A stretch of 64,000 nucleotides of DNA from Denitrificimonas caeni DSM 24390 (GTDB taxonomy: Bacteria; Pseudomonadota; Gammaproteobacteria; Pseudomonadales; Pseudomonadaceae), in contig NZ_ATXQ01000008.1 in assembly GCF_000421765.1 (NCBI RefSeq), forward strand, positions 1 to 64,000. The letters are read 5' to 3'. Both the position numbers and the translations under genes were made by a program. Below, piece by piece: positions 26,954-58,500 of this stretch; positions within the stretch are counted from its first letter, which is position 1, and each line of letters begins with the position of its first letter. The notes beneath the pieces were generated by a model. The model ran no database searches. It saw only the letters and a program-made list of their open reading frames with translations, and was not told the origin of the DNA.

Positions 26954-27220
26954 GAGCAACCTAAATAGTTAATGGGTAAGTGGTGGGTCTGGTGTCTATT
27001 GTTAAAACAGCGACCTTTAAAGTGCCAAGATTGTAGCGTTTTACAGAGAATTAAGCAGTAGTTGCAGATGTTTGTCTTCTTTGCCGGTGCTTAACTCTTA
27101 TGTGAACTGCTGGCTGGGAGCGCAGGCGGCTCGCCCGCAAAGAATCCCGCGGGTTGTGTCATGTACATATTTGTTGTTTGTTTTGTAGTGCTAGTGGTGT
27201 TGATGAGTCAGGTTCATACC

Positions 27221-27316
27221 GTACTTCGGGGTAGGTGTTCATCCGTCGTTGAGCCCATCCTGGGCTCAACGACGGCGCTCGCCATCCCTGGCTCGCTCGT
27301 CACACCAACCCCGAAG
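27221..27316 (+). repeat. Palindromic repeat family, copy R1
   Basis: The outer arms are complementary (GTACTTCGGGGTAGGTGT against ACACCAACCCCGAAG). The inner stem is a perfect 15-bp palindrome around TCC at 27243-27275. The conserved box CGCCATCCCTGGCT follows at about 27280-27293. The copy is in forward orientation. Confidence 0.85.
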
Positions 27317-27446
27317 CACTCGTTGACCAGTTGCGTGGTTTTCACTATTGCAGTAGCAGTCAGCTGTGCAGATTTACATTTATTGCAGAGCAATGGTTTT
27401 AAAAGCGTCATGCGCAAAACTCACAGGCAACACCGATATTTAATGA

Positions 27447-27545
27447 GTACCTTGTTTGTGTCGCGACTAGCGTAGCCAGGGATGGCGGAGCGCCCGAATC
27501 GGGTCAGGATGACCCGTTGAGGGAGCAGCGATACGAACAAGGTAC
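27447..27545 (-). repeat. Palindromic repeat family, copy R2
   Basis: The outer arms GTACCTTGTTTGTGTCGC and GCGATACGAACAAGGTAC are complementary at 16 of 18 positions. The inner hairpin is CGGGTCA-GGA-TGACCCG on the plus strand. The conserved box reads AGCCAGGGATGGCG on the plus strand, so this copy is reversed relative to R1. GGCACGCAC follows on the right, as in copy R6. Confidence 0.85.
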
Positions 27546-27604
27546 GGCACGCACAAATCGATCAATATACTTGGCTTTATTAACAGGGATAATTGGGGCA
27601 TACC

Positions 27605-27700
27605 GTACTTCGGGATCGGTGTTCATCCGTCGATGAACCCATCCTGAGTTCAACTCCGACGCTCGCCATCCCTGGCTCGCTCGTCACACCAACCCCGAAG
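27605..27700 (+). repeat. Palindromic repeat family, copy R3
   Basis: This copy is closely similar to R1, with arms GTACTTCGGGATCGGTGT and ACACCAACCCCGAAG. The inner stem GAACCCA-TCC-TGAGTTC has one mismatch, and the box is CGCCATCCCTGGCT. Both R1 and R3 are followed by CACTCGTTGA. Confidence 0.85.
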
Positions 27701-27855
27701 CACTCGTTGATCATATTCAGTGCTTGCATTCTTTACGTATCAATCATCAAGGCAGTGGTAAAAGTATTAAAAATAGTAACAGTAGCGAATTGATGACATA
27801 GATTTTAGCTCAGCTCATGACATTCGACTGACTTGCAAACAACGCCAATGATTGA

Positions 27856-27960
27856 GACACCGCGCGTGAGTGTCGTGGCCAGCGTAGCCAAGGATGGCGT
27901 AGCGCACGAATCGGGTTAGGAAGACCCGTTGAGGGAAGAACGATACTCACGCGTGGTGTC
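27856..27960 (-). repeat. Palindromic repeat family, copy R4
   Basis: The outer arms GACACCGCGCGTGAGTGTCGT and ACGATACTCACGCGTGGTGTC are complementary at 19 of 21 positions but unlike the arms of the other copies. The inner stem is weaker (CGGGT/ACCCG). The box on the plus strand is AGCCAAGGATGGCG. Confidence 0.85.
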
Positions 27961-28162
27961 GTACACGAGTCTCTGTTCAATGCTTCTGCTTCTCGCTGTG
28001 TCTAGATTGCTCAATAGTTTTGGGTCGTTATTTTTGTAATAAAATCTACGTGAGTAAGACTTATTGTCAGAGTGATCGCCTTTCATGTGCCAAGGCCGTT
28101 TAGATAATGTAGAATCCCTAACTTATATTTCTATTAGCCTTGTTGATTCCATGAGGACCGCT

Positions 28163-29416
28163 ATGTTCAGCCGTGATTTGACTGTTGCCCGATTTGACGC
28201 CGAACTTTTTGATGCGATGGAGAAAGAAGCCCAGCGCCAAGAAGAGCATATTGAGCTGATTGCATCAGAAAACTACACCAGCCCTGCGGTTATGGAGGCA
28301 CAAGGTTCTGTGCTGACCAATAAATACGCCGAAGGTTACCCAGGAAAGCGCTACTACGGTGGTTGTGAGTACGTCGATATTATTGAGCAGTTGGCCATTG
28401 ATCGTGCTAAAGAGTTGTTTGGCGCCGACTACGCTAACGTGCAGCCGCATGCCGGCTCACAAGCCAATGCTGCTGTTTACCTCGCCTTACTTGAAGGTGG
28501 CGATACCATCTTAGGTATGAGCTTGGCGCACGGTGGTCACTTGACCCACGGTGCTAGCGTGAGCTCTTCAGGCAAACTCTATAATGCCATTCAGTACGGT
28601 ATTAACGATGCAGGCCTGATTGACTACGACGAAGTTGAGCGTTTGGCTGTAGAGCACAAACCAAAAATGATCGTGGCTGGTTTCTCTGCCTACTCACAGG
28701 TTCTAGATTTCCCACGTTTCCGTGAAATCGCTGACAAAGTAGGTGCTTACCTATTCGTTGATATGGCTCACGTAGCTGGTTTGGTTGCTGCAGGTGTGTA
28801 CCCCAACCCAGTGCCTTATGCTGACGTAGTAACCACCACCACGCACAAAACTTTACGCGGACCACGTGGCGGTTTGATCCTTGCACGTGCTAACGAAGCG
28901 ATTGAGAAGAAACTTAACTCTGCAGTGTTCCCAGGCACCCAAGGTGGCCCGCTGGAGCACGTGATTGCTGGTAAAGCGATCTGCTTTAAAGAAGCATTGC
29001 AGCCTGAGTTTAAAGAGTATCAAAAGCAAGTGATCAAGAACGCGCAGGTCATGGCTCAGGTCTTTATGGATCGTGGCTTTGATGTGGTATCAGGCGGTAC
29101 GTTTAACCACCTGTTCTTGGTTTCACTGATCAAGCAAGAAATCACTGGTAAAGATGCCGATGCTGCATTGGGCGAAGCTTTTATCACTGTTAACAAAAAC
29201 GCAGTACCGAATGATCCGCGCTCACCTTTCGTGACCTCAGGTTTACGTATTGGTACACCTGCAGTAACGACGCGCGGCTTTAAAGAAGCAGAGTGCAGCG
29301 AGTTGGCCGGCTGGATTTGCGACATCCTCGACAACATGGGTGATGCTTCTGTCATCGATGCGGTACGCGCCAAAGTGCTCGCAGTGTGCGCTAAGCACCC
29401 TGTATACGGTAAATAA
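28163..29416 (+). CDS. glyA: Serine hydroxymethyltransferase
   Basis: This 417-residue PLP enzyme interconverts serine and glycine, charging tetrahydrofolate with one carbon. The PLP lysine lies in [15 protein letters not shown]. Other signatures are [10 protein letters not shown] near residue 35 and [14 protein letters not shown]. Length is standard. The start is ATG 28163 (M-F-S-R-D), with GAGGA five bases upstream; in-frame codons back to 28085 add no family sequence. It is a single gene with its own terminator. The upstream region carries the repeat cluster rather than an obvious operator. Confidence 0.97.
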
Positions 29417-29430
29417 GTTAACGTTTGATA

Positions 29431-29458
29431 AAAAACCCAGCTTCAGCTGGGTTTTTTT
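29431..29458 (+). terminator. Rho-independent terminator of glyA
   Basis: ACCCAGCT-TC-AGCTGGGT with A-run before and seven T residues after, 14 bases past the glyA stop. Confidence 0.93.
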
Positions 29459-29719
29459 ATGCCTGCAAAAAAGCATTGAACACCGACAGCTAGGCTTGCT
29501 GGTTTAAGCACCAAGGCATATTGGTCTGCTGCGTTGCTTGAGTTGTAGGCGTGATGGCGAGCTGTATGACGTTAGCTGTCGAATCACTGGATGGACTGCT
29601 ATCAAAGTTAAATAAGCCTATTTGTTAGAAAACCTTTGCATTGAATGCTAATCTTTCGCATTATTGTTCTCTGGTTTTGATCATCATCAATTTTGCTTTA
29701 ACCCTTCAAGGATATTCTA
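29459..29719. other. Intergenic region before the imelysin operon
   Basis: About 260 bases without a gene. Near 29647-29665 AATGC and GCATT flank a TAATC-containing centre, a weak match (about 12 of 19 by eye) to a Fur box, as might be expected before an iron-regulated imelysin gene. AAGGA precedes the next ATG. Nothing else was recognised. Confidence 0.3.
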
Positions 29720-31057
29720 ATGCGTGTTTTTTCATTTGCTCATCTGAGCGTATTGGCTTTGGCAATTAATTTAGCGGCCTGTGGCGATAGCGAGCCGACC
29801 ACATCTGCGACTGCAGTGACACCAGCGCCTGCTGCGGCAACCTTAACAACAACTAAAACTGCAGATACGCAAGCCATTACCCGCGAGCAAGTGATCAGTC
29901 ACTACGCTGATATCGCGCATGCTACTTTTAGTGATGCGCACAGCACCGCGCAAGCTTTACAGGTTGCGGTCAATGTTTTTGTTGCCGCGCCGAGTGCACA
30001 AACCCAGCAAGCGGCCAAAGAGGCGTGGTTAGCTGCGCGTGTGCCGTATATGCAATCTGAAGTGTTCCGCTTTGGTAATGCTTTGGTGGATGAGTGGGAA
30101 GGGCAGGTCAACGCTTGGCCGCTGGATGAAGGCTTGATTGATTATGTTGATGGCGATTACCAATATGCGTTAGGCAATGACGGTGCAACCGCCAATATTA
30201 TTGCCAGCCAGAGCATTCAGGTGGGTGAAGAGAAAGTTGATGTCAGTGAGTTAACGGCTGAGTTATTAGCCGGTTTAAATGAGCTGGGTGGTTCTGAAGC
30301 CAACGTTGCGACGGGTTACCATGCCATTGAGTTTTTGCTCTGGGGGCAGGATTTAAATGGCACCCAGCCCGGTGCCGGTGAGCGTTCTTATACCGATTAT
30401 TTAACCGATGAAAACTGCACTGGCGGCAACTGCGAACGCCGCGGCCAGTATTTAAAAGTTGTCACTGATTTACTGGTGGATGATCTCGCTGAGATGACGG
30501 CGCAGTGGGCAACCGGTAATCCTGACAACTACCGCACTGAATTGCTGGCGGACAGCGCTGAAAAAGGCTTACGCAAAGCATTCTTTGGCATGGGCAGTTT
30601 GAGTTTAGGAGAGCTGGCTGGTGAGCGCATGAAAGTTGCGCTAGAAGCAAGCTCCACTGAAGATGAGCATGACTGCTTCAGTGATAACACCCACAATTCG
30701 CATTTCTACAACGCCAAAGGCGTGCGTAATGTGTATTTGGGTGAATATAAGAAAGTGGATGGTACTGTGCTGACAGGGCCGAGCATTGCCCAGTTGGTGC
30801 AAACAGCGGATGCCAACGCAGACCAGTTGTTACAAGCTAAGTTAGACGCTACTGAAAAAAGCTTGCAGGTGATGGTCGATGCAGCTGAAAATGGCATGGC
30901 ATTTGATCAGATGATTGATCCGGAAAATACAGATGGGCAGCAAATTGTGCGTGATTCGATAGCTGCGCTAGTTGAGCAAACCACAGCCATTGAGCAAGCG
31001 GCTTTGGCTTTAGGTATCACTGAGTTAAATCCAGATACGGCTGATCACGCCTTTTAA
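29720..31057 (+). CDS. Imelysin-family (M75) lipoprotein, iron-regulated-protein-A type
   Basis: This 445-residue envelope protein has a type II signal peptide ending in L-A-A-C, followed by an Ala/Thr-rich linker to about residue 55 and one large imelysin domain. The domain has the conserved G-Y-H-A-I-E-F-L-L-W-G-Q motif, matching the family G-x-H-x-x-E. Related proteins (IcmP in P. aeruginosa, IrpA in cyanobacteria) are linked to iron; the peptidase assignment of the family is doubtful. It starts a run of four same-strand genes: imelysin, di-heme protein, imelysin, DUF1513. It is probably anchored in the outer membrane facing the periplasm. The 126 bases to the next gene hold no strong terminator. 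Confidence 0.92.
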   Translation: MRVFSFAHLSVLALAINLAACGDSEPTTSATAVTPAPAAATLTTTKTADTQAITREQVISHYADIAHATFSDAHSTAQALQVAVNVFVAAPSAQTQQAAKEAWLAARVPYMQSEVFRFGNALVDEWEGQVNAWPLDEGLIDYVDGDYQYALGNDGATANIIASQSIQVGEEKVDVSELTAELLAGLNELGGSEANVATGYHAIEFLLWGQDLNGTQPGAGERSYTDYLTDENCTGGNCERRGQYLKVVTDLLVDDLAEMTAQWATGNPDNYRTELLADSAEKGLRKAFFGMGSLSLGELAGERMKVALEASSTEDEHDCFSDNTHNSHFYNAKGVRNVYLGEYKKVDGTVLTGPSIAQLVQTADANADQLLQAKLDATEKSLQVMVDAAENGMAFDQMIDPENTDGQQIVRDSIAALVEQTTAIEQAALALGITELNPDTADHAF

Positions 31058-31183
31058 AGTGCGCATGCTTACTACGTGTTACTAGCAGGTAAATAACCTG
31101 TTGTATTAGTGGTATTAGTGCAGTTAACCCCGAATGCCGACATTTGTCGGCGTTCTTATTTTTATAGGTTTTAGGTTGTGGGC

Positions 31184-32593
31184 ATGAATGTTTTTTTAGC
31201 GCTAGGTTTGCTCAGCATAAGCAGTTTAGCCATGGCACAAACAGCGACAGATTTGAGCGGCTTTGATCCACAAGAGCGTTTCTCTGGTGGCGCGACGACA
31301 GTTAATAAATTTGATGCCAATGCATTTTCTTTACCTTCGGCTAATTTAGCGCCAACACGCCGTTTGGATTTTAGTGTGGGCAATAGCTTCTTTCGCAGCC
31401 CTTGGGTGATCGCTCCAGCAACTACCACGTCACGTGATGGTTTAGGACCGTTGTTCAATACCAATGCCTGCCAAAACTGCCATATCAAAGATGGCCGTGG
31501 CCACCCACCAGGGGCTGATGCTGTGAATGCGGTGTCGATGCTGGTGCGTTTATCGATTCCTAGTACCCCTGCAGCTGCTGCCCTGTACGCTAAAAAAGGC
31601 ATTGTGCCTGAGCCTAACTATGGCGGACAACTGCAAGATATGGCGATTCCCGGTGTTGCACCGGAAGGCCGCGTGCGTGTCAGCTATACGCCGCTACCCG
31701 TGACGTTTGCCGATGGCAGCGTGGTTGAGTTACAACAACCGCAGGTGCAAATTAGCGATCTAGGTTATGGACCTATGCACCCTGATGTTCTGATGTCGGC
31801 GCGGGTGGCACCGCCGATGATAGGTTTGGGTTTACTCGAAGCCATTGCTGAAGACGATATTCTAGCCAATCAAGACCCTGATGATCTAAATGGCGATGGT
31901 ATTCGTGGTCGCGCCAATCAGGTCTGGTCACATGAGGCGCAAGCCTTGGCGCTGGGCCGTTTTGGTTGGAAAGCGGGACAGCCGAGCATGCGTCAGCAAA
32001 ATGCTGATGCGTTCTTCAATGATATGGGCTTATCGACACCGTTGCTCAGCGGCAGTGCCTGCACTGAGCAACAAACCGATTGTCTCGCCGCACCTGACGG
32101 TGGTGCGCCTGAGGTCAATGAAAAAATTGAAGCACAGGTGTTGTTTTATTCACGTAACTTAGCCGTGCCAGCACGACGTAACCCTGATAGTCCTGAGGTA
32201 TTAAAGGGTAAGCAGTTGTTCCAGCAAGCCAATTGTCACAGCTGTCACACGCCACGCTTTGTCACGCGTAAAGATGCGGCTGAACCTGAGTTAGCCGAGC
32301 AAGTGATTTTCCCTTATACAGATTTACTGCTGCATGATATGGGTGAGGGTTTAGCTGATCAGCGTCCTGAGTTTTTGGCCAGCGGTCGTGATTGGCGTAC
32401 GCCACCTTTGTGGGGCATTGGTTTAACTGAGGCAGTCAGTGGTCATACGCGATTTCTGCATGATGGCCGCGCGCGCAATCTAATGGAGGCTGTGCTCTGG
32501 CATTCTGGCGAAGCAGAAGCAGCCAAACAGCAGGTGTTAAAGTTCTCGCAGCCTGAGCGCGAAGCTTTGTTAGCTTTTCTTAATTCTCTTTAG
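31184..32593 (+). CDS. Di-heme c-type cytochrome, DUF1111 (thiol-oxidoreductase-like) family
   Basis: This 469-residue periplasmic protein has a type I signal peptide (cleavage near AMA-Q) and two c-type heme sites, C-Q-N-C-H at about 96-100 and C-H-S-C-H near 350. The architecture (G-L-G-P-L-F-N-T-N-A-C before heme 1, and L-H-D-M-G-E-G-L-A-D and G-H-T-R-F-L-H-D-G-R-A after heme 2) matches the DUF1111 di-heme oxidoreductase family. The ATG at 31184 is preferred, eight bases after AGG; a GTG at 31178 is possible. Its position between two imelysins suggests a redox step in periplasmic metal handling. That role is inference. Confidence 0.92.
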   Translation: MNVFLALGLLSISSLAMAQTATDLSGFDPQERFSGGATTVNKFDANAFSLPSANLAPTRRLDFSVGNSFFRSPWVIAPATTTSRDGLGPLFNTNACQNCHIKDGRGHPPGADAVNAVSMLVRLSIPSTPAAAALYAKKGIVPEPNYGGQLQDMAIPGVAPEGRVRVSYTPLPVTFADGSVVELQQPQVQISDLGYGPMHPDVLMSARVAPPMIGLGLLEAIAEDDILANQDPDDLNGDGIRGRANQVWSHEAQALALGRFGWKAGQPSMRQQNADAFFNDMGLSTPLLSGSACTEQQTDCLAAPDGGAPEVNEKIEAQVLFYSRNLAVPARRNPDSPEVLKGKQLFQQANCHSCHTPRFVTRKDAAEPELAEQVIFPYTDLLLHDMGEGLADQRPEFLASGRDWRTPPLWGIGLTEAVSGHTRFLHDGRARNLMEAVLWHSGEAEAAKQQVLKFSQPEREALLAFLNSL

Positions 32594-32602
32594 GTGCCAA
32601 CG

Positions 32603-33664
32603 ATGTTTAAAAAAATAGTCTATGCCATTGCCAGTGTCAGCTTGTTGGCCTGCAGCAACAGCGGTGATCCCTATCAACAAACCAGTGCTGCTTTAGCAGA
32701 GCAAGTGATTTACCAAGCACACCAAGACTGGCAAGCCAGTAATCAGAATTTGCTGAGTAGTGCACAAGCGTTCTGTCAGGGTGAGCAAGACCTTACGCAA
32801 ACGCGCGAAGATTTCTTGCAGGCTCAGCACAGTTGGGCGGCGTTACAGCCGTTATTGATTGGACCATTGAATGAAGGTAATCGGGCCTGGCAAGTGCAGT
32901 TTTGGCCAGATAAGAAAAACTTAGTGGCGCGTCAAGTGCAGCAGTTTCTTAAAGCCAATCCTGAGCCAAGTCTAGCCAGCCTCGAGCGTGCCAGCGTGGT
33001 CGTACAAGGCCTCAGTGCGTATGAGTATGTGCTGTTTGATCCAGAGCTTGATCTTGCTGATGCCGCACAAAAGCAACGCTACTGCCCACTGCTAGAAAAC
33101 ATCGCTGCGCATCAGCAAAAACTGGCAAATGATGTGCTCACACAGTGGCAGGGCGAACAAGGCATGCTGGCGCAGTTAACCAGATTCCCGAATGAACGCT
33201 ACGCTGAGCCACTGGAAGCACTGACAGCGATTGTGCAGGCACAAGTCATCAGTCTCGATGGTCTGAAGAAAAAGCTTGGCACACCGCTGGGACGTAGCAT
33301 TAAAGATATTGCTCAGCCGTATCAAGCGCAGTCATGGCGCAGTCAGGCTTCACTCAGCAATTTGTCTGCTGAAGTCGAGAGTGCCTTAGCGATTTGGCAG
33401 GGCGCAGAGCAGCATTCCATTCGCGCACTGTTAGCGACTGAGCATGCGGATCTGGTTAAGCAAATTGATGCCGCTTATTTGCAAGCTCAGCAAGAGTTGG
33501 CTGCTTTCAAACAGCCGTTAACGCTATTGCTGCAAGATGAGCAGCAGCGCCAAGCCTTGTTTACCTTATATGACAGCTTTGATCGCCTGCACCGCCTGCA
33601 TGAAAAAGATGTGGCGCGCGCACTGGGTGTGCAACTGGGCTTTAATGCCCATGATGGTGACTAA
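32603..33664 (+). CDS. Second imelysin-family lipoprotein, lacking the GxHxxE histidine
   Basis: This 353-residue protein has a type II signal peptide with S-L-L-A-C lipobox and an imelysin-like helical domain. At the position of the family G-x-H-x-x-E motif it reads G-L-S-A-Y-E-Y, so Ser replaces the His. That suggests a divergent binding role or lost activity. The ATG at 32603 has AGG eight bases upstream; the GTG at 32594 directly abuts the previous stop. It follows the di-heme gene by nine bases and precedes the DUF1513 gene by two, so the four genes form one operon. It is shorter than the first imelysin (353 against 445). Confidence 0.88.
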   Translation: MFKKIVYAIASVSLLACSNSGDPYQQTSAALAEQVIYQAHQDWQASNQNLLSSAQAFCQGEQDLTQTREDFLQAQHSWAALQPLLIGPLNEGNRAWQVQFWPDKKNLVARQVQQFLKANPEPSLASLERASVVVQGLSAYEYVLFDPELDLADAAQKQRYCPLLENIAAHQQKLANDVLTQWQGEQGMLAQLTRFPNERYAEPLEALTAIVQAQVISLDGLKKKLGTPLGRSIKDIAQPYQAQSWRSQASLSNLSAEVESALAIWQGAEQHSIRALLATEHADLVKQIDAAYLQAQQELAAFKQPLTLLLQDEQQRQALFTLYDSFDRLHRLHEKDVARALGVQLGFNAHDGD

Positions 33665-33666
33665 GT

Positions 33667-34764
33667 ATGCAGCGTCGTACATTTTTAGCGGCCAGTTTGG
33701 TCGCTGTGGCTGGCAGCGCTGTGTTGGGCTGGCGTTGGTGGCCACAAGGTCGTCAGCCGGTGTTGCTGTCAGCCCGAGACAATGCTCAAGGCGAGCATTT
33801 TGCGGTGGGTTATACCTTAGCCGGTGAGCAGCTGTTTGCTACGCAGGTCACTGAGCGTTGCCATGATATTTGTGTGCATCCGTCGTTACCCTTAGCGGTG
33901 TTTACTGGGCGCAGGCCATCGACTGAAAGTTATTTAATTGATTTGCAAACAGGGCGCTTAGTACAAACCTTTGTAACCCCACTCAATCGTCACTTTCAAG
34001 GTCATGCGGTGTTTGATGCGCGTGGCGAGCGCCTGTACAGCACAGAAAATGATACCGACGAGCCAGGGCGCGGTGTGATTGGCGTCTGGCAGCTGGATAC
34101 TGCGCAACGCTTACAACGAGTGGATGATTTATCCAGTCATGGTGTGGGGCCACATCAATTGCTGTGGCTGCCCGATGGCAAAACTTTAGTTGTCGCCAAT
34201 GGCGGAATTCGTACCGAGTCGGGCAGTCGTGAAGAGCTTAATCTCGACGCGATGGAGCCCAGTTTAGTGCTGATGAATACTCAAGGTGAGCTCTTAAGTA
34301 AAGAGTTACTGGCCGATTCGATGAACAGCATTCGTCATTTGGCTGTGGCCGATGACGGTACTGTGATTGCCGTGCAGCAATATCAAGGTTCATTAACTGA
34401 GCGCATTGATTTGCTTGCCATCAAGCGTCCGCAGCAAGCTTTTCAGGTATTTCCCGTAGCTGAAGCCCAGCGCAGTAAAATGCAGCAGTACGCCGCCAGT
34501 GTGGCCATTCATAATGAGCTGCGTCTAGTGGCGATGACTGCGCCACGTGGCGGGCGGATGTTTATCTGGGATTTAGACAGTGCCGAGTTACGCCTCGATG
34601 CGCCTTTTCCGGATTGCGCAGGTGTTGTCGCCAGTGCAGAAGGTTTTGTGGTGACCACCGGAGTCGGGCGTTGCCGTGCCTATGATTGCCGTAGCGATAG
34701 CATCCGTATGCAGGCGTTGAATATGCCGGCAGGGCTTTGGGATAATCACGCTTTGATGGTGTAA
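33667..34764 (+). CDS. DUF1513 protein with Tat-like signal
   Basis: This 365-residue protein begins M-Q-R-R-T-F-L, a twin-arginine-like motif before a short hydrophobic segment, suggesting folded export. The rest is beta-rich with recurring strand patterns (H-D-I-C-V-H-P, V-F-D-A-R-G-E-R-L-Y-S-T-E-N-D, G-P-H-Q-L-L-W-L-P-D-G-K-T-L-V-V-A-N-G-G), consistent with the beta-propeller-like DUF1513 family. That family is regularly encoded with imelysin and di-heme genes. It starts two bases after the previous stop. The function of DUF1513 is unknown; a periplasmic metal-related role is inferred from context only. Confidence 0.88.
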   Translation: MQRRTFLAASLVAVAGSAVLGWRWWPQGRQPVLLSARDNAQGEHFAVGYTLAGEQLFATQVTERCHDICVHPSLPLAVFTGRRPSTESYLIDLQTGRLVQTFVTPLNRHFQGHAVFDARGERLYSTENDTDEPGRGVIGVWQLDTAQRLQRVDDLSSHGVGPHQLLWLPDGKTLVVANGGIRTESGSREELNLDAMEPSLVLMNTQGELLSKELLADSMNSIRHLAVADDGTVIAVQQYQGSLTERIDLLAIKRPQQAFQVFPVAEAQRSKMQQYAASVAIHNELRLVAMTAPRGGRMFIWDLDSAELRLDAPFPDCAGVVASAEGFVVTTGVGRCRAYDCRSDSIRMQALNMPAGLWDNHALMV

Positions 34765-34768
34765 CGGT

Positions 34769-34800
34769 TTATTTGCCGAGCAAAAGAGCTCGGCAAATAA
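34769..34800. terminator. Hairpin between convergent DUF1513 gene and apeB
   Basis: TTATTTGCCGAGC and GCTCGGCAAATAA form a perfect 13-bp stem with a 6-base loop. Its AT-rich base could serve as a U-run in either direction. Confidence 0.75.
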
Positions 34801-34816
34801 GCAATGTTGCAGTCGG

Positions 34817-36106: not shown

Positions 36107-36244
36107 GGTAACTCCGACTATCAAATCAATCGCAAAAGCTTAGCATTCTTGGCTGAGCGCCGCGACCTCTGGCTGGTCCGTGACTGTTAGCGTTAGGCTG
36201 CTTGTGTTGATCAGTGCTCAATTTTAGTTGGCGTGATCAGGTTT

Positions 36245-43259: not shown

Positions 43260-43299
43260 ACGCGCCGCTTTACTTGAATATTCAAGAGAGCTTTAAAAT

Positions 43300-43380
43300 C
43301 CACACACATATCGACACGAATTTCTGGGTGCCTTCGGGTTGAAAGTCGGGATATGTGGAGGCCTAACCCGTTTTATTATT
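43300..43380 (+). promoter_or_regulatory. Structured rpsB 5' leader (probable S2 autoregulatory element)
   Basis: In the ~130-base leader CACATATC (43305-43312) pairs with GATATGTG (43350-43357), enclosing a CC-TTCG-GG hairpin. CGGGTT (43335-43340) can also pair with AACCCG (43365-43370) outside that helix, a pseudoknot-like arrangement. Ribosomal protein S2 is known to repress rpsB-tsf through a leader structure in gammaproteobacteria; this layout fits. Confidence 0.6.
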
Positions 43381-49392: not shown

Positions 49393-50741
49393 GTGGTTTG
49401 TATATGTTGCTTGGCACGCTCGTTACGCTAGGTGTTCTGGTGACAATTCATGAGTACGGACATTTCTGGGTGGCGCGCCGCTGCGGCGTCAAAGTGTTAC
49501 GTTTTTCGATTGGTTTCGGTACACCTTTGTTGCGTTGGCATGACCGATATGGCACGGAGTTTGTTATCGCTCTGATTCCGCTTGGCGGCTATGTGAAGAT
49601 GCTCGATGAGCGCGAAACACCGGTCGCTGAAGCGCAGCAAAGCCAATCATTTAACCGCAAAACAGTGGGTCAGCGTATTGCCATTGTGATCGCCGGGCCT
49701 GTGGCTAACTTTGCGTTAGCATTTGTATTGTTTTGGTGCTTGGCAATGCTCGGCAGTCAACAGGTTAAACCTGTGATTGGTGAAGTGGCTGCTGAAAGTT
49801 TAGCTGCGCAGGCAGGTTTACGCAGTGGGCAAGAGATCATTGCCGTTGACGGCCAAGCTGTTTCAGGCTGGTCGGATGTTAATTTGCAACTTATTCAGCG
49901 TTTGGGTAACAGCGGTACCTTGCGCATTGATGCCCAAACTCCGGGTAACTCTGCTGTCAGTAGCTATACGCTAAACTTGGATAAGTGGCTGTACGGTGCT
50001 GAAGAGCCTAATCCAATCAGTGATTTAGGTATTGAGCCTTGGCGTCCACAGGTCGCAGCGGTTGTTGCACAGCTTGATCCTGAAGGGCCAGCGCAGCATG
50101 CGGGCTTGCAATTGCAGGACAAAGTGATTGCGATCGATGGTCAAGCCGTCGAAGATTGGCAAAGTGTCGTCAGTTATGTGCAGGCACGTCCCAATACAAC
50201 GATAGAATTGAGCGTTGAGCGAGCTGGGCAGCGTATAGAGTTGCCAGTGCTGTTAACTGCTCAAGGAGTCGCTGCTGAAGCCCGTGGTTATTTAGGTATG
50301 GGCGTGACGGGTGGTGAGTGGCCAGCAGAAATGCTGCGCGATGTCCGTTATGGTCCGTTGGATGCGATTGTGCAAGGTGCGCAGCGAACTTGGACCATGA
50401 GTGCTTTAACTCTAGGCTCGTTGAAAAAGATGCTGTTTGGCGAACTCTCAGTAAAAAACTTGAGTGGACCGATAACCATTGCTAAAGTGGCCGGCGCTTC
50501 GGCTGAAAGTGGCCTGAGAAGTTTTTTGAACTTCATGGCTTATTTGAGTATTAGCTTAGGCGTGTTGAATTTATTGCCAATTCCTGTGCTTGATGGCGGA
50601 CATCTGCTATTTTATATCGTTGAGTGGGTCCGTGGTCGACCGTTGTCAGAACGTATCCAAGCTTTAGGGATGCAGATCGGTATTGCTTTAGTGGTTGGTG
50701 TTATGGTTCTTGCGGTATTTAATGATTTAGCGCGTTTGTAA
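49389..50741 (+). CDS. rseP: Site-2 protease RseP (sigma-E regulator)
   Basis: This 450-residue inner-membrane zinc metalloprotease cuts the anti-sigma factor RseA/MucA within the membrane and degrades leftover signal peptides. The zinc site H-E-Y-G-H is at about 21-25 in the first transmembrane segment; the third ligand lies in P-I-P-V-L-D-G-G near 398. Two PDZ domains lie between (about 125-190 and 215-295), with G-L-R-S-G-Q-E-I and G-L-Q-L-Q-D-K-V cores. Its ATG overlaps the dxr stop. It precedes bamA, the usual arrangement. Confidence 0.97.
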
Positions 50742-50802
50742 AAATACTGATTCGCTGCTTGGCAGTGGGTTTTATATATATCGTTGAAAAAGAAAGGTTT
50801 GC

Positions 50803-53166
50803 ATGAAACGTCTGCTGCTACCTGCGGTTATATCCGCGCTAATAATTTCTGAAGCTCACGCTGCACCCTTCACTGTCTCTGATATCCGTGTTAACGGTTT
50901 ACAGCGCGTGTCTGCTGGCAGTGTCTTTGCTGCTTTACCCTTGAATGTCGGTGAGCCGGTTGATGATCGCCGTTTGGCAGAAGCAACGCGTTCGTTATTT
51001 AAAACGGGTTTTTTTGAAGATATTCAACTCAGTCGTGATGGTGACATCTTAATTATTAACTTAGTTGAGCGTCCTTCCATTTCCAGCGTGGAAATTGAGG
51101 GTAATAAAGCCATCAGTAAAGAAGACTTGCTCAAAGGTTTAAAACAGTCTGGACTCGCTGAAGGCGAGATTTTCCAGCAGGCGACCTTAGAAGGCGTGCG
51201 CAATGAATTGCAGCGCCAATATGTTTCTCAAGGCCGTTACTCTGCCAATATTGATGCGCAGGTGATTGCTCAGCCACGCAACCGTGTAGCGTTGAAAATT
51301 AACGTTACTGAAGGTTCAGTGGCATCGATTCAGCACATCAACGTTGTCGGTAATAAAGTATTTAAAGATCAAGATTTGATCGACCTGTTTGAACTGAAAA
51401 CCAAAAACTGGTTATCGTTTTTCCGTAACGATGACAAATATGCGCGGGAAAAACTGTCAGGTGACTTAGAGCGTTTGCGTTCTTATTACTTTGACCGTGG
51501 TTATATCAATATGGATATAAGTTCCACGCAGGTTTCTATCACTCCAGATAAAAAGCACGTTTATATCACTGTGAACGTTGATGAGGGTGAGCAGTACACC
51601 ATCCGCGATGTGAAACTGTCAGGTGACCTGAAAGTACCTGAAGAAGATGTAAGAGCTTTGCTGCTGTCCCGCGAAGGGCAAGTGTTCTCACGTAAAGTGA
51701 TGACCACCACGTCAGAATTAATCACTCGTCGCTTAGGTAATGATGGTTACACCTTTGCCAACGTCAATGGTGTGCCAGAAACCCACGACGAAGACAATAC
51801 GGTATCTCTTACTTTTGTGGTTGACCCAGGTAAGCGCTCTTACGTTAATCGTATCAATTTCCGTGGCAATACTAAGACCATGGATGAAGTGCTGCGTCGT
51901 GAAATGCGTCAAATGGAAGGCGGTTGGGCCTCCACTTACTTAATTGATCAGTCGAAAACGCGTTTAGAGCGTTTAGGCTACTTCAAAGAAGTCAACGTGG
52001 AAACACCGCAAGTGCCGGGTACTGACGATCAAATTGATGTCAATTACAGCGTTGAAGAGCAGCCGTCAGGTTCGATTACTGCCAGTGTTGGTTTTGCTCA
52101 GAATGCCGGTTTGATTCTTGGTGGGTCAATCAGTCAGAGCAACTTCTTAGGTACGGGTAACAGAGTCAGCGCGGGCTTAACTCGCAGTGAGTATCAAAGT
52201 AATTATAACTTCAGTTTCGTTGATCCGTACTGGACCGTCGATGGCGTGAGTTTAGGCTACAATGCTTTCTACCGCACCACTGACTACGATAAGTTAGACG
52301 TTGATGTGTCAAGTTACTCCGTCGATAGTTTGGGCGGTGGTATTAATATTGGTTATCCAATCAATGAAACATCACGCCTTAACTTTGGCCTCAGTGCTCA
52401 GCAAGATAAGTTAAAAACAGGGCGTTATACTGTTGATGAGATTTTTGACTTTGTCGAGAAAGAGGGTGACAACTACACTAACTTTAAAGCTTCGGTGGGT
52501 TGGTCAGAGTCAACCCTGAATCGTGGGATGATGGCAACCCGTGGTCACTCACAAAGTTTGGTGTTAGAAACAACCATTCCGGGCAGTGATCTATCGTTTT
52601 ATCGTTTAGATTACCGCGGTCAACTTTTCAAACCATTAACCACGAACTACACCTTACGTTTCCATACTGAACTAGGTTATGCGGAAAGTTATGGTTCTAC
52701 TTCGGAGTTGCCATTCTTTGAACATTATTATGCCGGTGGTTTTAACTCGGTACGAGGGTTTAAAGACAGCAGTTTAGGTCCACGTAGTACTCCGAGCACA
52801 GGTACACGACCAGGCACCTTGAAAGATCCAGATGATGACAATTTGCCATTCGGTGGTAACGTACTCGTGCAAGGTGGTGTTGAATTACTCTTCCCAATGC
52901 CCTTTGTTAAAGATCAGCGTTCATTACGTACAGTATTGTTCTGGGATGTCGGTAATGTGTTTGACACACACTGTAGCTCAGCACAGAAAAGCCGTAATGA
53001 AGCAGGTTGTGGCCTTAAGTACGATAACTTAGCCAGCTCAGTTGGTGTTGGGCTAACATGGGTGACTGCGCTAGGGCCGTTAAGCTTTAGTTTAGGTGTG
53101 CCAGTGAAAAAGCCAGACAATGCGGATACCCAAGTATTCCAGTTCTCTTTGGGCCAAACATTCTAA
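50803..53166 (+). CDS. bamA: Outer-membrane protein assembly factor BamA
   Basis: This 787-residue Omp85 protein inserts beta-barrel proteins into the outer membrane. A signal peptide (cleavage after A-H-A) is followed by five POTRA repeats (about 25-425), beginning with F-T-V-S-D-I-R-V-N-G-L-Q-R. The C-terminal 16-strand barrel carries the essential loop-6 motif V-R-G-F in N-S-V-R-G-F-K-D-S-S-L-G-P. It ends with a terminal Phe (L-G-Q-T-F), the expected outer-membrane signature. AAAGG precedes the ATG. It is in the usual order rseP-bamA-skp. Confidence 0.98.
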   Translation: MKRLLLPAVISALIISEAHAAPFTVSDIRVNGLQRVSAGSVFAALPLNVGEPVDDRRLAEATRSLFKTGFFEDIQLSRDGDILIINLVERPSISSVEIEGNKAISKEDLLKGLKQSGLAEGEIFQQATLEGVRNELQRQYVSQGRYSANIDAQVIAQPRNRVALKINVTEGSVASIQHINVVGNKVFKDQDLIDLFELKTKNWLSFFRNDDKYAREKLSGDLERLRSYYFDRGYINMDISSTQVSITPDKKHVYITVNVDEGEQYTIRDVKLSGDLKVPEEDVRALLLSREGQVFSRKVMTTTSELITRRLGNDGYTFANVNGVPETHDEDNTVSLTFVVDPGKRSYVNRINFRGNTKTMDEVLRREMRQMEGGWASTYLIDQSKTRLERLGYFKEVNVETPQVPGTDDQIDVNYSVEEQPSGSITASVGFAQNAGLILGGSISQSNFLGTGNRVSAGLTRSEYQSNYNFSFVDPYWTVDGVSLGYNAFYRTTDYDKLDVDVSSYSVDSLGGGINIGYPINETSRLNFGLSAQQDKLKTGRYTVDEIFDFVEKEGDNYTNFKASVGWSESTLNRGMMATRGHSQSLVLETTIPGSDLSFYRLDYRGQLFKPLTTNYTLRFHTELGYAESYGSTSELPFFEHYYAGGFNSVRGFKDSSLGPRSTPSTGTRPGTLKDPDDDNLPFGGNVLVQGGVELLFPMPFVKDQRSLRTVLFWDVGNVFDTHCSSAQKSRNEAGCGLKYDNLASSVGVGLTWVTALGPLSFSLGVPVKKPDNADTQVFQFSLGQTF

Positions 53167-53210
53167 TTTAGTTTTAAATCAATCAATAACAGCGTTTCTA
53201 GGGGTGTACC

Positions 53211-53714
53211 GTGCGTAAGTTAACTCAACTTGTTTTACTGACAACTGCTTTAATCAGTGGTCCTGTGTTTGCGGAAATGAAAATCGCTGTATTGAACTAT
53301 CAAATGGCTCTGTTGGAATCTGACGCTGCCAAGAAATATGCGGTTGATGCGGAAAAGAAATTTAGTCCACAACTGACTAAACTGAAAAACCTAGAAAGCG
53401 ATGCCAAGCGTATTCAAGATCGTTTGATGAAAGATGGCGAGCGTATGCAACAAGCTGAGCTTGAGCGTTTAGAGCTTGAGTTCAAACAAAAAGCCCGTGA
53501 CTTTCAAACCCAGTCCAAAGACTTAAACGAAGCTAAAGCGGTTGCTGATCGCGATATGCTACAAAAACTTAAGCCTAAACTGGATAAAGCCGTTGAAGAT
53601 GTATTGAAGAGCGGCAACTATGACTTAGTCTTAGAGCGCGGTGCGGTAGTTGATGTTAAGCCTCAGTTTGACATCACCTTGCGTGTTATTGAGCGCATGA
53701 ATCAGTTACGTTGA
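53211..53714 (+). CDS. skp: Periplasmic chaperone Skp/OmpH
   Basis: This 167-residue protein has a signal peptide (cleavage near VFA-E). A short beta region starts K-I-A-V-L-N-Y, and long charged helices form the Skp tentacles that cradle unfolded outer-membrane proteins. The start is GTG at 53211 with AGGGG eight bases upstream. It lies 44 bases after bamA, and lpxD begins one base after its stop. Confidence 0.94.
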
Positions 53715-53715
53715 T

Positions 53716-54735
53716 ATGAAACAGTTTAATCTTGCTCAGTTAGCCGAGATGCTCGGCGCTGAGCTGCGTGGTGATGCACAGAAAAATATTTTTGGTTTGG
53801 CGACGCTGCAAGAAGCCAGTGCCGATCAATTAAGTTTTTTAGCCAATGCCCATTACCGTAAGCAGCTTGAAACCAGTCAGGCAGGCGCGATGTTGTTGTC
53901 TGCTAAGGATGCGGTTGATTACAGCGGTAATTGCTTGATTGTGGCTGATCCTTATTTGGCCTATGCAAAACTCTCTCATTTTTTTGATCGCACGCCGAAG
54001 CAGCCTGCAGGTATTCACCCAAGCGCAGTAGTTGCTGAGAGTGCCTTGGTTGATTCAACTGCTTGTATTGGGCCAGGCGTAGTGATTGATGAAGATGCAG
54101 TGATTGGTGCTGGCGTCAGTATCGGTGCACATTGTGTGATTGGTGCGCGCAGTCGTATTGCCGAGCAGGGTCGCTTAGCACCACGAGTGACGCTTTACCA
54201 TGACGTCACTATCGGTGCACGTGTGGTGATTCAATCGGGCGCCGTGATTGGTGGTGAAGGTTTTGGTTTTGCTAAGCATCAAGGTGAATGGCATAAGATT
54301 GCCCAGATTGGCGGCGTGACCATTGGTGACGATGTTGAGATTGGTGCTAATACCTGTATTGACCGCGGTGCGCTTGCTGATACCTTAATTGGTAATGGGG
54401 TCAAGCTAGACAACCAAATCCAGATTGCCCATAACGTACAGATTGGCGACAATACAGCGATTGCAGCCTGTGTCGGGATTTCCGGTAGTGCAAAAATTGG
54501 CCGCAACTGTATGTTGGCGGGTGGTGTCGGTTTAGTTGGTCATATTGATATTTGTGATGATGTGTTTATTACAGGTATGACCATGGTTACCCATTCTATT
54601 AGTGAGCCGGGTGCGTATTCGTCAGGTACGGCGATGCAGCCAGCAGCGGAATGGAAAAAAAGCGCGGTACGTTTTCGTCAGTTGGATGACATGGCGAAAC
54701 GTCTTCGAGTATTGGAAAAACATACTCAGAAGTGA
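53716..54735 (+). CDS. lpxD: UDP-3-O-(3-hydroxyacyl)glucosamine N-acyltransferase
   Basis: This 339-residue cytosolic trimer performs the third lipid A step, adding the N-linked hydroxyacyl chain from acyl-ACP. The N-terminal uridine-binding domain (about 1-100) is followed by a left-handed beta helix of hexapeptide repeats, with catalytic-region H-N-V-Q-I-G-D-N and I-A-H. A C-terminal helix ends the protein. It starts one base after the skp stop. A 145-base gap separates it from fabZ, unusually wide within this tight cluster. Confidence 0.97.
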
Positions 54736-54880
54736 CTGCGTGTATGGATATATCATCTGACTGCTTATCGACCTTTATTGCTAATCAGCTTTAATTTAGC
54801 GCATTAAGTGCCGTTCAGTTGAGGGTGGTAGGTTGTGTGTACGGTATACACAGCCTCACTTATTTGATTAAGGCTTTTTT

Positions 54881-55321
54881 ATGATGGACATTAACGAGAT
54901 TCGTCAACTTCTCCCGCACCGCTACCCTTTTTTATTAGTGGATCGTGTTGTGGCGATTGATTTAGAGCAGAAGACGATCAATGCTTATAAAAACGTAAGC
55001 ATCAACGAGCCTTTTTTTAATGGCCATTTCCCACAGCACCCGATTATGCCAGGCGTTCTAATTATTGAAGCTATGGCACAAGCAGCAGGCGTGTTGGGCT
55101 TTAAAATGATGAATGCTTCGCCAGAAGACGGTACCTTGTATTACTTTGTTGGTTCTGACAAATTGCGCTTTCGTCAGCCAGTCGTACCAGGCGATCGTCT
55201 TGATTTAAAAGCACGTTTTCTGAGCTCGAAACGTGGTATTTGGAAGTTTGAATGCCAAGCAACAGTAGCTGATGTATTGGTTTGTTCGGCTGAAATTATC
55301 TGTGCGGAACGCAAACTATGA
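54881..55321 (+). CDS. fabZ: 3-hydroxyacyl-ACP dehydratase FabZ
   Basis: This 146-residue hot-dog-fold enzyme dehydrates 3-hydroxyacyl-ACP in fatty-acid elongation and competes with LpxA/LpxD for substrate. The active-site block [15 protein letters not shown] contains the catalytic His, and the Glu follows in L-I-I-E-A-M-A-Q. It starts [17 protein letters not shown]; either Met could initiate. Its stop overlaps the lpxA start (ATGA). Confidence 0.98.
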
Positions 55322-56094
55322 GTTTAATTGATCCTAGCGCCATTATTGATCCAACAGCTCAGCTTGCGGATGACGTGACTGTTGGGCCATGGACCATCAT
55401 TGGGCCTGGTGTCGAAATAGGTGCTGGATCAATTATCGCATCGCACGTGGTGATTAAAGGGCCAACGAAAATTGGCTGTCATAATCACATCTACCAGTTT
55501 TCATCGGTAGGTGAAGATACCCCAGATTTAAAGTATCAAGGCGAAGCTACACGCTTAGTGATTGGCGATCATAACGTCATTCGTGAAGGTGTCACCATTC
55601 ACCGTGGTACCGTGCAAGACCGCTCTGAAACCACCATTGGTAATCACAACTTAATCATGGCCTACGCGCATATCGGCCATGACAGCGTGATTGCGAATCA
55701 CTGTATTTTAGTCAATAACACAGCCTTAGCAGGGCATGTACATATGGATGACTGGGCTATTTTATCCGGTTACACCTTGGTTCATCAGTATTGTCATATT
55801 GGCGCGCACAGCTTTACGGCGATGGGCGCTGCGATTGGTAAAGATATTCCTGCTTTTGTCACTGTCGCCGGTAACCCTGCGGAAGCACGTAGTATGAACT
55901 TTGAGGGCATGCGCCGCCGTGGTTTCACCGAGGATGCGATACAGGCGTTACGTCGTGCTTATAAGGCTGTTTATCGCCAGGGCTTGACAGTGGAAGAGGC
56001 ATTGGACGCCTTAACTGAGAGTGCAGCTGAGCACCCGGAAGTAGAATTGTTTTGTGATTCAATACGCCGATCTTCCCGCGGTATTACTCGCTAA
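55318..56094 (+). CDS. lpxA: UDP-N-acetylglucosamine O-acyltransferase
   Basis: This 258-residue trimeric left-handed beta-helix enzyme performs the first committed acylation of lipid A. Hexapeptide repeats run to about 190. The catalytic His region is M-A-Y-A-H-I-G-H-D, and [13 protein letters not shown] and the chain-length ruler region G-Y-T-L-V-H-Q-Y follow the family. A helical C-terminus completes it. It overlaps fabZ by four bases and lpxB by one base (TAATG). Confidence 0.98.
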
Positions 56095-57242
56095 TGACTG
56101 AGCAGTTGCTGCAGCCTTTAAAAGTTGCTCTGGTGGCTGGTGAAGCCTCGGGTGATATTTTGGGGGCTGGTCTCATGCAGGCTATACGCAATCATTGTCC
56201 ACAAGTTGAATTCATTGGCGTTGGCGGGCCTTTAATGGAAGCGCAAGGCTTGCAATCGTATTTCCCGATGGAACGTCTGGCTATTATGGGCTTGGTGGAA
56301 GTGCTGGGTCGATTGCCTGAGCTGTTATCGCGGCGCAAGCGTTTGGTCGCCACGTTAAAGCAACAGCAACCAGATGTGTTTATTGGTATCGATGCACCAG
56401 ACTTCAATTTAACGATCGAGCTGCAGTTGCGTGAAGCAGGCATTAAAACTGTGCATTACGTAAGTCCTTCAGTTTGGGCATGGCGCCAAAAGCGGGTGTT
56501 AAAAATTCGCCAAGGCTGTGATTTGATGCTGACTTTGCTGCCTTTTGAAGCGCAGTTCTATCAAGATAATCAAGTCCCAGTGCTGTTTGTCGGTCATCCG
56601 TTGGCTGATAGCGTAGCCATGCATAATGATCCGCTGCCTGCGCGCGAGCAACTAGGTCTACCAGCTGATGCGCAAGTGGTCGCTTTGTTGCCGGGCAGTC
56701 GTGGTGGTGAAGTCGCGAAGTTAGGTGCTCTGTTTGTTGATACGGCGCGCTATTTGTTAGCTGAAAAGCCGCAACTACGTTTTATCATTCCAGCGGCCAA
56801 TCAAGCACGCCGTGAGCAGTTAGCAGCAATTTTAGCCGAAGCACCCAATCTGCCTATTGAGATTCTCGATGGTCAATCACAAACTGCATTGCAAGCCTGT
56901 GATGCAGTGTTGATTGCTTCTGGCACTGCAACCCTAGAAGCCATGTTGTTTAAAAAACCGATGGTGGTTGCTTACAAGTTGGCACCCTTAAGCCATTGGC
57001 TGTTGAAGAAAATGGTGAAAAGCCCTTACATTTCTCTGCCTAACTTATTAGCCGCTGAGATGCTGGTGCCTGAATTTATTCAAGACGCGGCCACACCTGA
57101 AGTTTTGGGCGAGGCGGTGTTAACACAGTTGCGTGATGGCTCAAAGCAAACCCAGCGCTTTGCTGAACTACATCAGTCCTTGCGCTGCGATGCCTCACAG
57201 CGTGCTGCGCAGGGTGTGTTACAGCTATTAGGGCGTATGTAG
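56094..57242 (+). CDS. lpxB: Lipid-A-disaccharide synthase
   Basis: This 382-residue GT19 glycosyltransferase at the inner membrane joins UDP-diacylglucosamine with lipid X. Motifs include [11 protein letters not shown] near the N-terminus, [18 protein letters not shown] and [10 protein letters not shown]. Late S-G-T-A-T-L-E completes the donor site. It overlaps lpxA by one base, and its TAG overlaps the GTG start of rnhB. Confidence 0.98.
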
Positions 57243-57844
57243 TGCAACTCGGTCTACTTCAGCAGGCGCGTGCTGGCAAGATTGTAGCGGGTGTCGATGA
57301 AGTGGGACGAGGGCCTTTATGTGGGCCTGTTGTTACCGCTGCGGTCATTCTCGATCCACAACGTCCTATTTTTGGCTTGAATGACTCGAAAAAACTCACG
57401 GAGAAAAAACGTGAAGCTTTGTTTGTAGAGATTCAAGAAAAAGCTTTAGCGTGGTCTATTGGGCGTGCTGAAGTTGAAGAAATCGATCAGTTAAATATCC
57501 TTCAGGCCACGATGCTGGCCATGCAGCGCGCTGTTGAGGGTTTGTCGATCACCCCAGACTTAGCTTTGATTGATGGTAATCGTTGCCCGCAATTGAGTAT
57601 GGCCAGCGAGGCTGTGGTGCAGGGTGATGGTTTGATTGCGGAAATATCTGCAGCATCGATTTTGGCGAAAGTCAGTCGTGATCGAGAAATGGCGATTCTG
57701 GATGCGCAATACCCAGGATATGGAATTGCTAAGCACAAAGGCTATCCAACCCCTGCGCATTTGAAAGCTTTGCAAGAGCTTGGCCCAACGCCTATTTATC
57801 GCCGTTCATTTGGCCCAGTACGGCGGTTTTTCGAAGCGGACTGA
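57242..57844 (+). CDS. rnhB: Ribonuclease HII
   Basis: This 200-residue RNase H type 2 removes ribonucleotides misincorporated in DNA. The catalytic acidic residues sit in G-V-D-E-V-G-R-G (Asp-Glu near 17-18), L-I-D-G-N (about 108) and A-K-V-S-R-D (about 140). It starts at GTG, sharing the G of the lpxB TAG stop. In many pseudomonads dnaE follows rnhB; here the downstream stretch is a cluster of repeats and then convergent mlaA. Confidence 0.97.
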
Positions 57845-57960
57845 TTCTCAGCCAAGTCACTTGATAGTGATGTAAAAAACTAAAATCCTCCTGTGGGCAT
57901 GGCGATCTGCGCTAAGTCTGCTTTTCCCTTTAAACCGTGTTGCAAGCCAAGTTTGCGCCT

Positions 57961-58064
57961 GACGTACCTCGCTAATACTGCTATTCCCTCAACGGGTCAT
58001 CCTGACCCGATTCGGGCGCTACGCCATCCTTGGCTCGCTCGCCGCAGCACTAGCGATGTACTTC
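57961..58064 (+). repeat. Palindromic repeat family, copy R5
   Basis: The outer arms GACGTACCTCGCTAATACTGC and GCAGCACTAGCGATGTACTTC are complementary at most positions. The inner hairpin is CGGGTCA-TCC-TGACCCG, and the box CGCCATCCTTGGCT is in forward orientation. TTGACCAT follows on the right. Confidence 0.85.
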
Positions 58065-58202
58065 TTGACCATGTGTGTTGATAGCAACCTTGCAGCAGGT
58101 ATCTTTTGAATTGTATTGATTGAGAGATACTGACTGCTGGCGTGAATCGCATAGTTTGCATGATTAAAACTGCGCTAATGCAAACAATACAAAAGGTCAC
58201 AG

Positions 58203-58310
58203 GCGTGCTTCGGGGTTAGTGTGCTGAGTGAGCCAAGGATGGCGAACGCCGGAGTTGAACCCTGGATGAGTTCATCGACGGATTAACACTGACCCCGAAG
58301 TACGGCACGC
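58203..58310 (-). repeat. Palindromic repeat family, copy R6
   Basis: This is a reversed copy of the R1/R3 type. The arms CTTCGGGGTTAGTGT and ACACTGACCCCGAAG are complementary at 14 of 15 positions. The inner stem is degenerate around GGA, and the box reads AGCCAAGGATGGCG on the plus strand. Confidence 0.85.
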
Positions 58311-58350
58311 ACAGTATTTGCCAATTAAAAACTACAAACAGTATGTGAGC

Positions 58351-58464
58351 ATGGCGAACTGCGCTCAGTCTGCTTTTCCCTCACGAGACATCCTGTCTCG
58401 ATTCGGGCGCTACGTCATCCCTGGCTACGCTTACCGCCGACTTAGCGCAGCTCACCTTGACCAT
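58351..58464 (+). repeat. Palindromic repeat family, copy R7
   Basis: The arms GCGAACTGCGCTCAGTCTGC and GCCGACTTAGCGCAGCTCAC are complementary with a few mismatches. The inner hairpin CGAGACA-TCC-TGTCTCG is perfect but differs from R5 at two compensated base pairs. The box is CGTCATCCCTGGCT. CTTGACCAT follows on the right. Confidence 0.85.
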
Positions 58465-58500
58465 CGTTGTTGTGCGCTAGCTCAGGTTGCTTGACCGTTG

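Follow-up and report, generated by a model that had tools for sequence, protein, structure and literature searches.

What are the palindromic repeats in two gene-free regions of this stretch of Denitrificimonas caeni DSM 24390, and what keeps them able to fold? The window, by which we mean the whole 64,000 nucleotides analysed (contig NZ_ATXQ01000008.1, positions 1 to 64,000), holds seven of them. A reading made from the letters without database searches (the sequence-only reading) had proposed that they are selected for folding, as RNA or cruciform DNA, and named no family for them. Our analysis supports selection for the fold and indicates that one strand folds as a single strand, for which RNA is the simplest reading. 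Judged by its sequence, the repeat resembles TwoAYGGAY RNA, here in the form of dispersed and diverged copies. The best explanation of its function is that these diverged TwoAYGGAY-like RNA elements bind CsrA/RsmA, a prediction that we regard as evenly balanced between being right and wrong.

Seven elements in the window and their anatomy

A covariance model (R1) was built from 74 genomic copies selected by the box that the sequence-only reading had pointed out. The genome contains 75 exact boxes; one is truncated at a contig end, two (loci L010 and L015, where R1 gives no match) do not lie inside an element and were left out, and two copies whose box differs by a single base were taken in. 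The R1 search of the window returned seven elements at 105.9-131.4 bits. The seven copies first noticed are borne out.

The single architecture ascribed to the seven copies resolves into two types, called from alignment features. Type A comprises element 1 (27209..27336, minus strand, 113.5 bits, fold −69.4 versus −60.4 for the other strand), element 3 (27593..27720, minus, 112.9 bits, −54.0 versus −34.7) and element 6 (58187..58315, plus, 105.9 bits, −55.4 versus −42.3). Type B comprises element 2 (27430..27557, plus, 131.4 bits, −56.8 versus −44.3), element 4 (27842..27969, plus, 113.3 bits, −60.9 versus −47.2), element 5 (57952..58078, minus, 129.5 bits, −46.4 versus −37.4) and element 7 (58344..58470, minus, 114.0 bits, −49.0 versus −39.2). 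The strand given for each element carries GCCANGGATGRC, the reverse complement of the box; the box of element 7 has one change and reads CGTCATCC on the plus strand. On the GCCANGGATGRC strand, all seven fold better than every one of 200 dinucleotide-shuffled controls (z −5.1 to −10.0). This strand is also more stable, by 9 to 19 kcal/mol, than the opposite one, which beats its own shuffles too (z −3.7 to −9.2).

As read from the sequence of the GCCANGGATGGC strand, the element is about 110 nt long and consists of an outer helix and two hairpins that meet in a three-way junction; the conserved flank contains TGATCAAnGAG. The outer stem has 18 bp. Hairpin 1 is built from GC, an internal loop (G-N-A/G-N-A or GA/GA), GCCA, the loop NGGA and TGGC. 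Hairpin 2 opens with three pairs, after which each side contributes G and A; a variable pair (A-T or G-C), a T-T mismatch and a six-pair stem with a GGA-bearing loop follow, and then the second outer arm. The TCC-centred hairpin of the sequence-only reading therefore appears as GGA loops on the folding strand, while its outer arms, variable yet self-complementary, stand as quoted, as does the inner-stem change from CGGGTCA/TGACCCG to CGAGACA/TGTCTCG. The box is itself the other hairpin.

Of the 118 rows, one has lost hairpin 1; among the other 117, its loop reads ANGGAY in 112, the free position being T in 42, G in 40, A in 26 and C in 4. In copies from relatives, the loop is ANGGAY in 76 of 85. 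Note that hairpin 1 had been used for choosing the first 74 copies and for fetching most of the relatives' loci. Hairpin 2 was not a selection criterion, although R1 itself favours it; its tip carries GGA in 110 of the 117 D. caeni rows and in 80 of 84 from relatives. The loops are NGGAN, mostly AGGA (58 CA-GGA) or CTGGA (34). Conserved purines face each other in both hairpins. Hairpin 1 has G49/A66 and A51/G64, hairpin 2 has G73/A101 and A74/G100, and each of these bases stands in 110-116 of 118 rows; we infer that they pair as G.A. In element 2, the hairpin 1 core GCCA-GGGA-TGGC (27475..27487, plus strand) presents the loop ANGGAU, a predicted CsrA-type site. Across the window, the motif CCATCCNTGGC occurs 11 times with at most one mismatch versus 3.0 expected, and 8 of these occurrences, including one in a hairpin 2, lie inside elements.

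Covariation and selection for folding

Among the 74 copies, 97.4% of pair cells hold standard pairs versus 77.9% in shuffles, and both sides have changed at 27 of 34 pairs. Two further sets, with alignments A2 (118 D. caeni copies), A3 and A4 fitted to the R1 structure, gave similar values: 96.3% paired with double changes at 30 of 34 pairs in the 118 copies taken without the box requirement, and 96.4% with double changes at 27 of 34 in 85 copies (84 distinct) from relatives' loci. When one arm was slid by 1-3 columns, pairing fell to 27-45% in all three sets. Five of five covariation measures exceeded 500 of 500 shuffles and all slid controls in each set. A tree-based test, an imitation of R-scape with one tree, 30 nulls and one row dropped beforehand (117 rows), returned 7 of 7626 column pairs at E 0.05, six of them structural; corrected for only the 34 structural pairs, 19 pass, as counted from printed values.

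Selection for folding, as the sequence-only reading had it, is thus supported by the shuffle, slide and tree-based tests. That reading would have been refuted by copies that break complementarity as often as they keep it; here 96% of cells are paired and 30 of 34 pairs have changed on both sides.

One strand folds

A G.T pair on one strand is an A.C mismatch on the complementary strand, so that the two can be compared by strand. In the outer stem, G.T was found 261 times versus 28 for A.C (129/9 in type A, 132/19 in type B), and 69 versus 8 after thinning to 34 copies of less than 80% identity; the copies from relatives gave 123 versus 22. When each copy was compared with the one nearest to it, reciprocal pairs being counted twice, 245 single steps ran via G.T and 30 via A.C. 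Two baselines lean the same way. Column shuffles of the first 74 copies gave 235 versus 116 (observed, 162 versus 12), and changes in the unpaired flanks lean to the same side by about 2:1 (C>T 122/704, G>A 44/470; A>G 88/939, T>C 15/353). Because both are too small, neither explains the ninefold G.T excess. As G.T exceeds A.C, unlike in a two-stranded cruciform, one particular strand folds alone. The sequence-only reading is thus supported in part: its choice between RNA and cruciform DNA narrows, cruciform DNA being rejected because of this bias.

The flank excess of C>T over G>A and of A>G over T>C on the folding strand amounts to a strand bias.

Distribution in the genome

The genome holds 117 R1 matches, of which 116 score at least 67.3 bits and the last 38.8 bits, and a 118th copy truncated by a contig end. 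Together with copies in 12 of 12 genomes of the genus, they are what came of the covariance-model search that the sequence-only reading had suggested. With genes taken as the longest open frames rather than from a gene caller, the 50 gaps that hold elements are convergent in 28 cases, tandem in 13, divergent in 4 and at contig edges in 5. The element nearest a gene end is mostly antisense to that gene (49 opposite, 22 same). Of 68 neighbouring element pairs, 37 stand head to head and 20 tail to tail, all 57 being A with B, and the 11 same-direction pairs are of one type each, 10 of them B-B and one A-A. Duplication of an A/B unit is the probable way in which clusters grow. Among D. caeni copies, the outer arms are 55% identical, and hairpin stems and unpaired parts 75% each.

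In the window, cluster 1 (elements 1 to 4) is flanked by divergent genes, element 4 lying upstream of glyA and pointing toward it, while elements 5, 6 and 7 share a gap between convergent ribonuclease HII and MlaA genes. Cis-regulation of one kind of gene was rejected since the four neighbour genes are unrelated and the gaps are of every orientation. Shorter palindromes of the type GCGGGCGAGCCGCCCGCGCTCCCA lie at 27110-27145 and in other gaps (e.g., L016, L021, L027) near several clusters, and another short palindromic repeat reads GTCGCTGGCATGGCCAGCTCATACAG; both look like ordinary repetitive extragenic palindromic (REP) sequences. The sole Rfam match of the window at gathering score is a t44 RNA (43283-43367, 74.3 bits).

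Spread among relatives

All 12 genomes of the genus that includes D. caeni carry copies, 13 to at least 150 each in a count limited to 150 scored candidates per genome. Under stricter filters, 17 of 248 genomes of the family had a match, namely the 12 of the genus (strong) and 5 of another genus (weak); this search scored at most 14 candidates per genome, and weak relatives may be missed. R1 gave 6 to 30 matches in each of these five genomes, and 24 loci from that genus fold with two ANGGAU loops. One of its elements matches a single Aeromonas record over 35% of its length.

Several sites have counterparts. A copy upstream of glyA, in the direction of element 4 and 194 to 390 bases before the start codon, is present in seven genomes including that of D. 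caeni; an eighth has one that faces the other way, a copy stands at this site in G002 too, and in a ninth the contig end lies too close for a decision. Of the 30 matches in the low-copy genomes G001 and G002, both flanks place 13 in gaps that bear elements in D. caeni, indicating that many sites are old; the other 17 matched these gaps by one flank or not at all, in a comparison that scarcely included D. caeni loci without elements. Three sites were aligned with those of relatives, which carry a diverged element at two of them. At the remaining one (L026 versus L094 and L136), the relatives seem to be without the element, and divergence hides its ends and any target duplication.

Outside the family, the spread is given among the matches listed and is incomplete. 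Two metagenome-assembled genomes (MAGs) labelled Oscillospiraceae, labels that are unchecked, have 10 loci at 58-66 bits by R1 and one more (L099) at 39 bits (L048, L057, L067, L084, L085, L099, L103, L115, L131, L135, L151); these elements are AT-rich and have the same fold in those folded. The Pseudomonadales MAG PL25a_bin.22 (L068, L072, L118) has a repeat of its own, which combines GGA hairpins with an outer stem that exceeds 20 pairs. Weaker R1 matches (22-33 bits) are repeats of the Pseudomonadales MAG and planctomycete loci, and in five planctomycete loci folded, the junction is not the same as in R1 elements. Note that all these loci, like those of the other genus, were fetched by the hairpin 1 pattern, so that only the remaining fold is independent evidence.

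Relation to TwoAYGGAY and other known systems

Compared with Rfam, the cluster 1 elements gave TwoAYGGAY (RF01731, clan CL00106) as the top score and the only full-length match. Its threshold was missed, as element 2 reached 22.3 bits (E 1.3, 27440-27552) versus a gathering score of 43, and neither the other three of the four cluster 1 copies scanned nor 8 further D. caeni loci gave a TwoAYGGAY match. Six of seven tested loci from the other genus pass the threshold, the seventh scoring 42.6 bits. The lack of a family name in the sequence-only reading therefore fits the window copies by score but not their architecture, which is that of TwoAYGGAY. Shared with this family is an outer stem round two GGA-loop hairpins. 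Of its two AYGGAY-type loops, hairpin 1 has a counterpart in ANGGAY, and hairpin 2 is mostly without the first A; its tandem G.A pairs are matched here by G and A positions that would pair likewise. The present repeats differ in their very many copies and in the two types that alternate in orientation. The discovery of TwoAYGGAY is described in passages of PMC2864571 (further mentions in parts of PMC11701678 and PMC7657543), and passages of PMC4333381 present it as a predicted CsrA binder with tandem G.A pairs and discuss RsmY, RsmZ and CsrB as sponge RNAs.

These sponge RNAs (RsmY, RF00195; RsmZ, RF00166; CsrB) likewise have GGA in hairpin loops, and RsmY, RsmW, rsmX and TwoAYGGAY belong to one Rfam clan. 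However, RsmY, RsmZ and CsrB are single genes with promoter and terminator, whereas the present elements number more than 100, with neither promoter nor terminator seen. REP sequences and bacterial interspersed mosaic elements (BIMEs) are intergenic and clustered, occur as two types of alternating orientation, and lie mostly at gene ends, all of which holds here; the differences are the ~110-nt three-way junction, the one-strand G.T bias, the variable arms and a search that found no Y1 transposase in the highest-copy genome. R0, R2, R178 and other intergenic repeat families of P. fluorescens are alike in that, according to passages of PMC2718517, they are dispersed, form hairpins and are biased to tail-tail gene pairs; R0 and R2, there called similar to miniature inverted-repeat transposable elements (MITEs), are unlike in this respect. 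A MITE with fixed ends was rejected as the outer arms vary. Integron attC sites carry complementary RYYYAAC/GTTRRRY core boxes at both ends; no such paired boxes were noticed when the flank consensus was read by eye, with no integrase search made.

Proposed binding of CsrA/RsmA and its alternatives

Passages of PMC4066749 give AAGGA, ACGGA, ATGGA, AGGGA and AGGA as primary CsrA sites and CTGGA, CGGGA and TGGGA as secondary ones. Hairpin 1 displays the first four primary sites, and hairpin 2 mostly AGGA or CTGGA; listed sequences thus stand in pairs in the hairpin loops. In passages of PMC7937890, the CsrA consensus RUACARGGAUGU is placed in hairpin loops, and an Rsm pull-down from P. putida is reported to contain intergenic sequences adjacent to ISPpu8 and to a "long palindromic region". 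By analogy, this pull-down may serve as a precedent. No link of CsrA with such repeats was found in searches of one open-access library, which is not proof of absence.

If the prediction holds, each transcribed element would offer two CsrA/RsmA sites, set a fixed distance apart and sufficient for one CsrA dimer. Transcription would come from neighbouring genes since no sigma-70-like promoter stands above chance at the copies. Jointly, the copies would act by titrating CsrA/RsmA or by recruiting it to the 3′ regions of the RNAs in which they lie. A CsrA gene is present in 12 of 12 genomes of the genus, and that of D. caeni is a 63-aa frame, which we take to be ordinary. An RsmY-like gene (46.3 bits against a cut-off of 57) is present in the genome as well, and such a below-cut-off match is found in all 12. 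RsmZ (RF00166) was detected in none of the 12 but in 14 of 18 other genomes of the family. The idea that the repeats replaced RsmZ was set aside as weakly linked, because RsmZ was also undetected, under stricter filters, in 4 of those 18 and in 17 of 17 genomes from other families of the order.

Several observations weigh against CsrA/RsmA binding by a folded RNA. The hairpins of D. caeni show scarcely any G.T bias (41 versus 29; 30 versus 12 in relatives), and folding of single-stranded DNA would likewise yield the bias of the outer stem. Part of element 1 also matches the gyrA RNA (20.5 bits) and RsmW (14.8 bits), both below cut-off, the former with an E of 0.041 that is better than that of element 2 against TwoAYGGAY. 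Sigma-70-like promoters are not enriched in the 100 bases upstream (3.9% versus 8.8% in shuffles for type A, 6.0% versus 9.0% for type B), and a T-run of at least four directly follows 35 of 118 copies, a count with no control; by sigma-70 consensus and T-runs, the only features searched, the promoter and intrinsic terminator of a small RNA gene were not found. The preference for convergent gaps could equally reflect mere tolerance, an argument made for other Pseudomonas repeats in passages of PMC2718517. In the two low-copy genomes, 89.2% of cells are paired. A test cruder than the one used for D. caeni, applied to 26 matches (from 22 of 30 loci), found ANGGAY kept in hairpin 1 of 18 and a paired GGA tip in hairpin 2 of 11. 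The copies seem to be eroding there, and the family seems dispensable although CsrA is kept.

The chief rival is a selfish, REP/BIME-like repeat, in which the hairpin of one DNA strand is the substrate of a transposase or recombinase and the GGA loops are part of what is recognized. We consider it unlikely. In its favour are the 57 inverted A-with-B pairs and the 11 same-direction pairs each of one type, the wide range of copy number, and single-stranded DNA folding, which also favours G.T over A.C. However, Y1_Tnp (PF01797) was found in 6 of 12 genus genomes but in neither G003 (at least 150 copies) nor G008 (81), the arms are poorly conserved between copies, and the age of many sites, as told by the low-copy genomes, speaks against it. 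That a Y1 transposase spreads the repeat in today's genomes was rejected on the strength of G003 and G008, with other recombinases not searched and loss after spread possible. Beside the other-genus elements, no transposase was seen among 10 proteins (9 of 24 loci scanned), four of which are without a Pfam family at 1e-5. Carriage by phages or plasmids was likewise rejected, as one type B element had no match there and three viral contigs that hold the pattern have no element.

Alternatively, the hairpins might act as a 3′-end element for convergent genes, blocking RNA decay or read-through in both directions without a specific protein partner. The share of convergent gaps (28 of 45 classifiable) fits, but generic stabilisers need neither an invariant loop with one free position nor conserved internal-loop bases, and cluster 1 lies between divergent genes. 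Moreover, the element next to a gene end is more often antisense to that gene, so that transcripts running past the gene end would carry the weaker-folding strand first; we regard this role as improbable. Still less credible, indeed very improbable, is that no selection acts on a one-strand fold and that palindromes are kept by one-step copying (template switching or gene conversion) that changes both arms together. The 79 double changes from one Watson-Crick pair to another, counted for each copy against its nearest neighbour, are as it predicts, and in element 1, hairpin 2 is a perfect palindromic helix in place of the usual G.A internal loop, as if by one-step correction. One-step copying may account for part of the palindromy. 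However, it predicts no G.T excess over A.C, against the 245 single steps via G.T, and it would erase the conserved internal loops.

Significance of the repeats

Returning to CsrA/RsmA binding, a further step, tentative and rather doubtful, is that the copies form a CsrA sponge distributed over the genome, in which copy number would set titration, selection would act on the RNA, and the repeats perhaps took over from RsmZ. With the same reserve, TwoAYGGAY would then be a dispersed repeat class, perhaps of more than one phylum, linked to a global regulator. Rfam types TwoAYGGAY as cis-regulatory, and dispersed repeats of this kind set it in a new context. Should CsrA/RsmA bind to the elements, an intergenic repeat of high copy number would gain a defined protein partner, and a change in repeat number would retune a global regulator.

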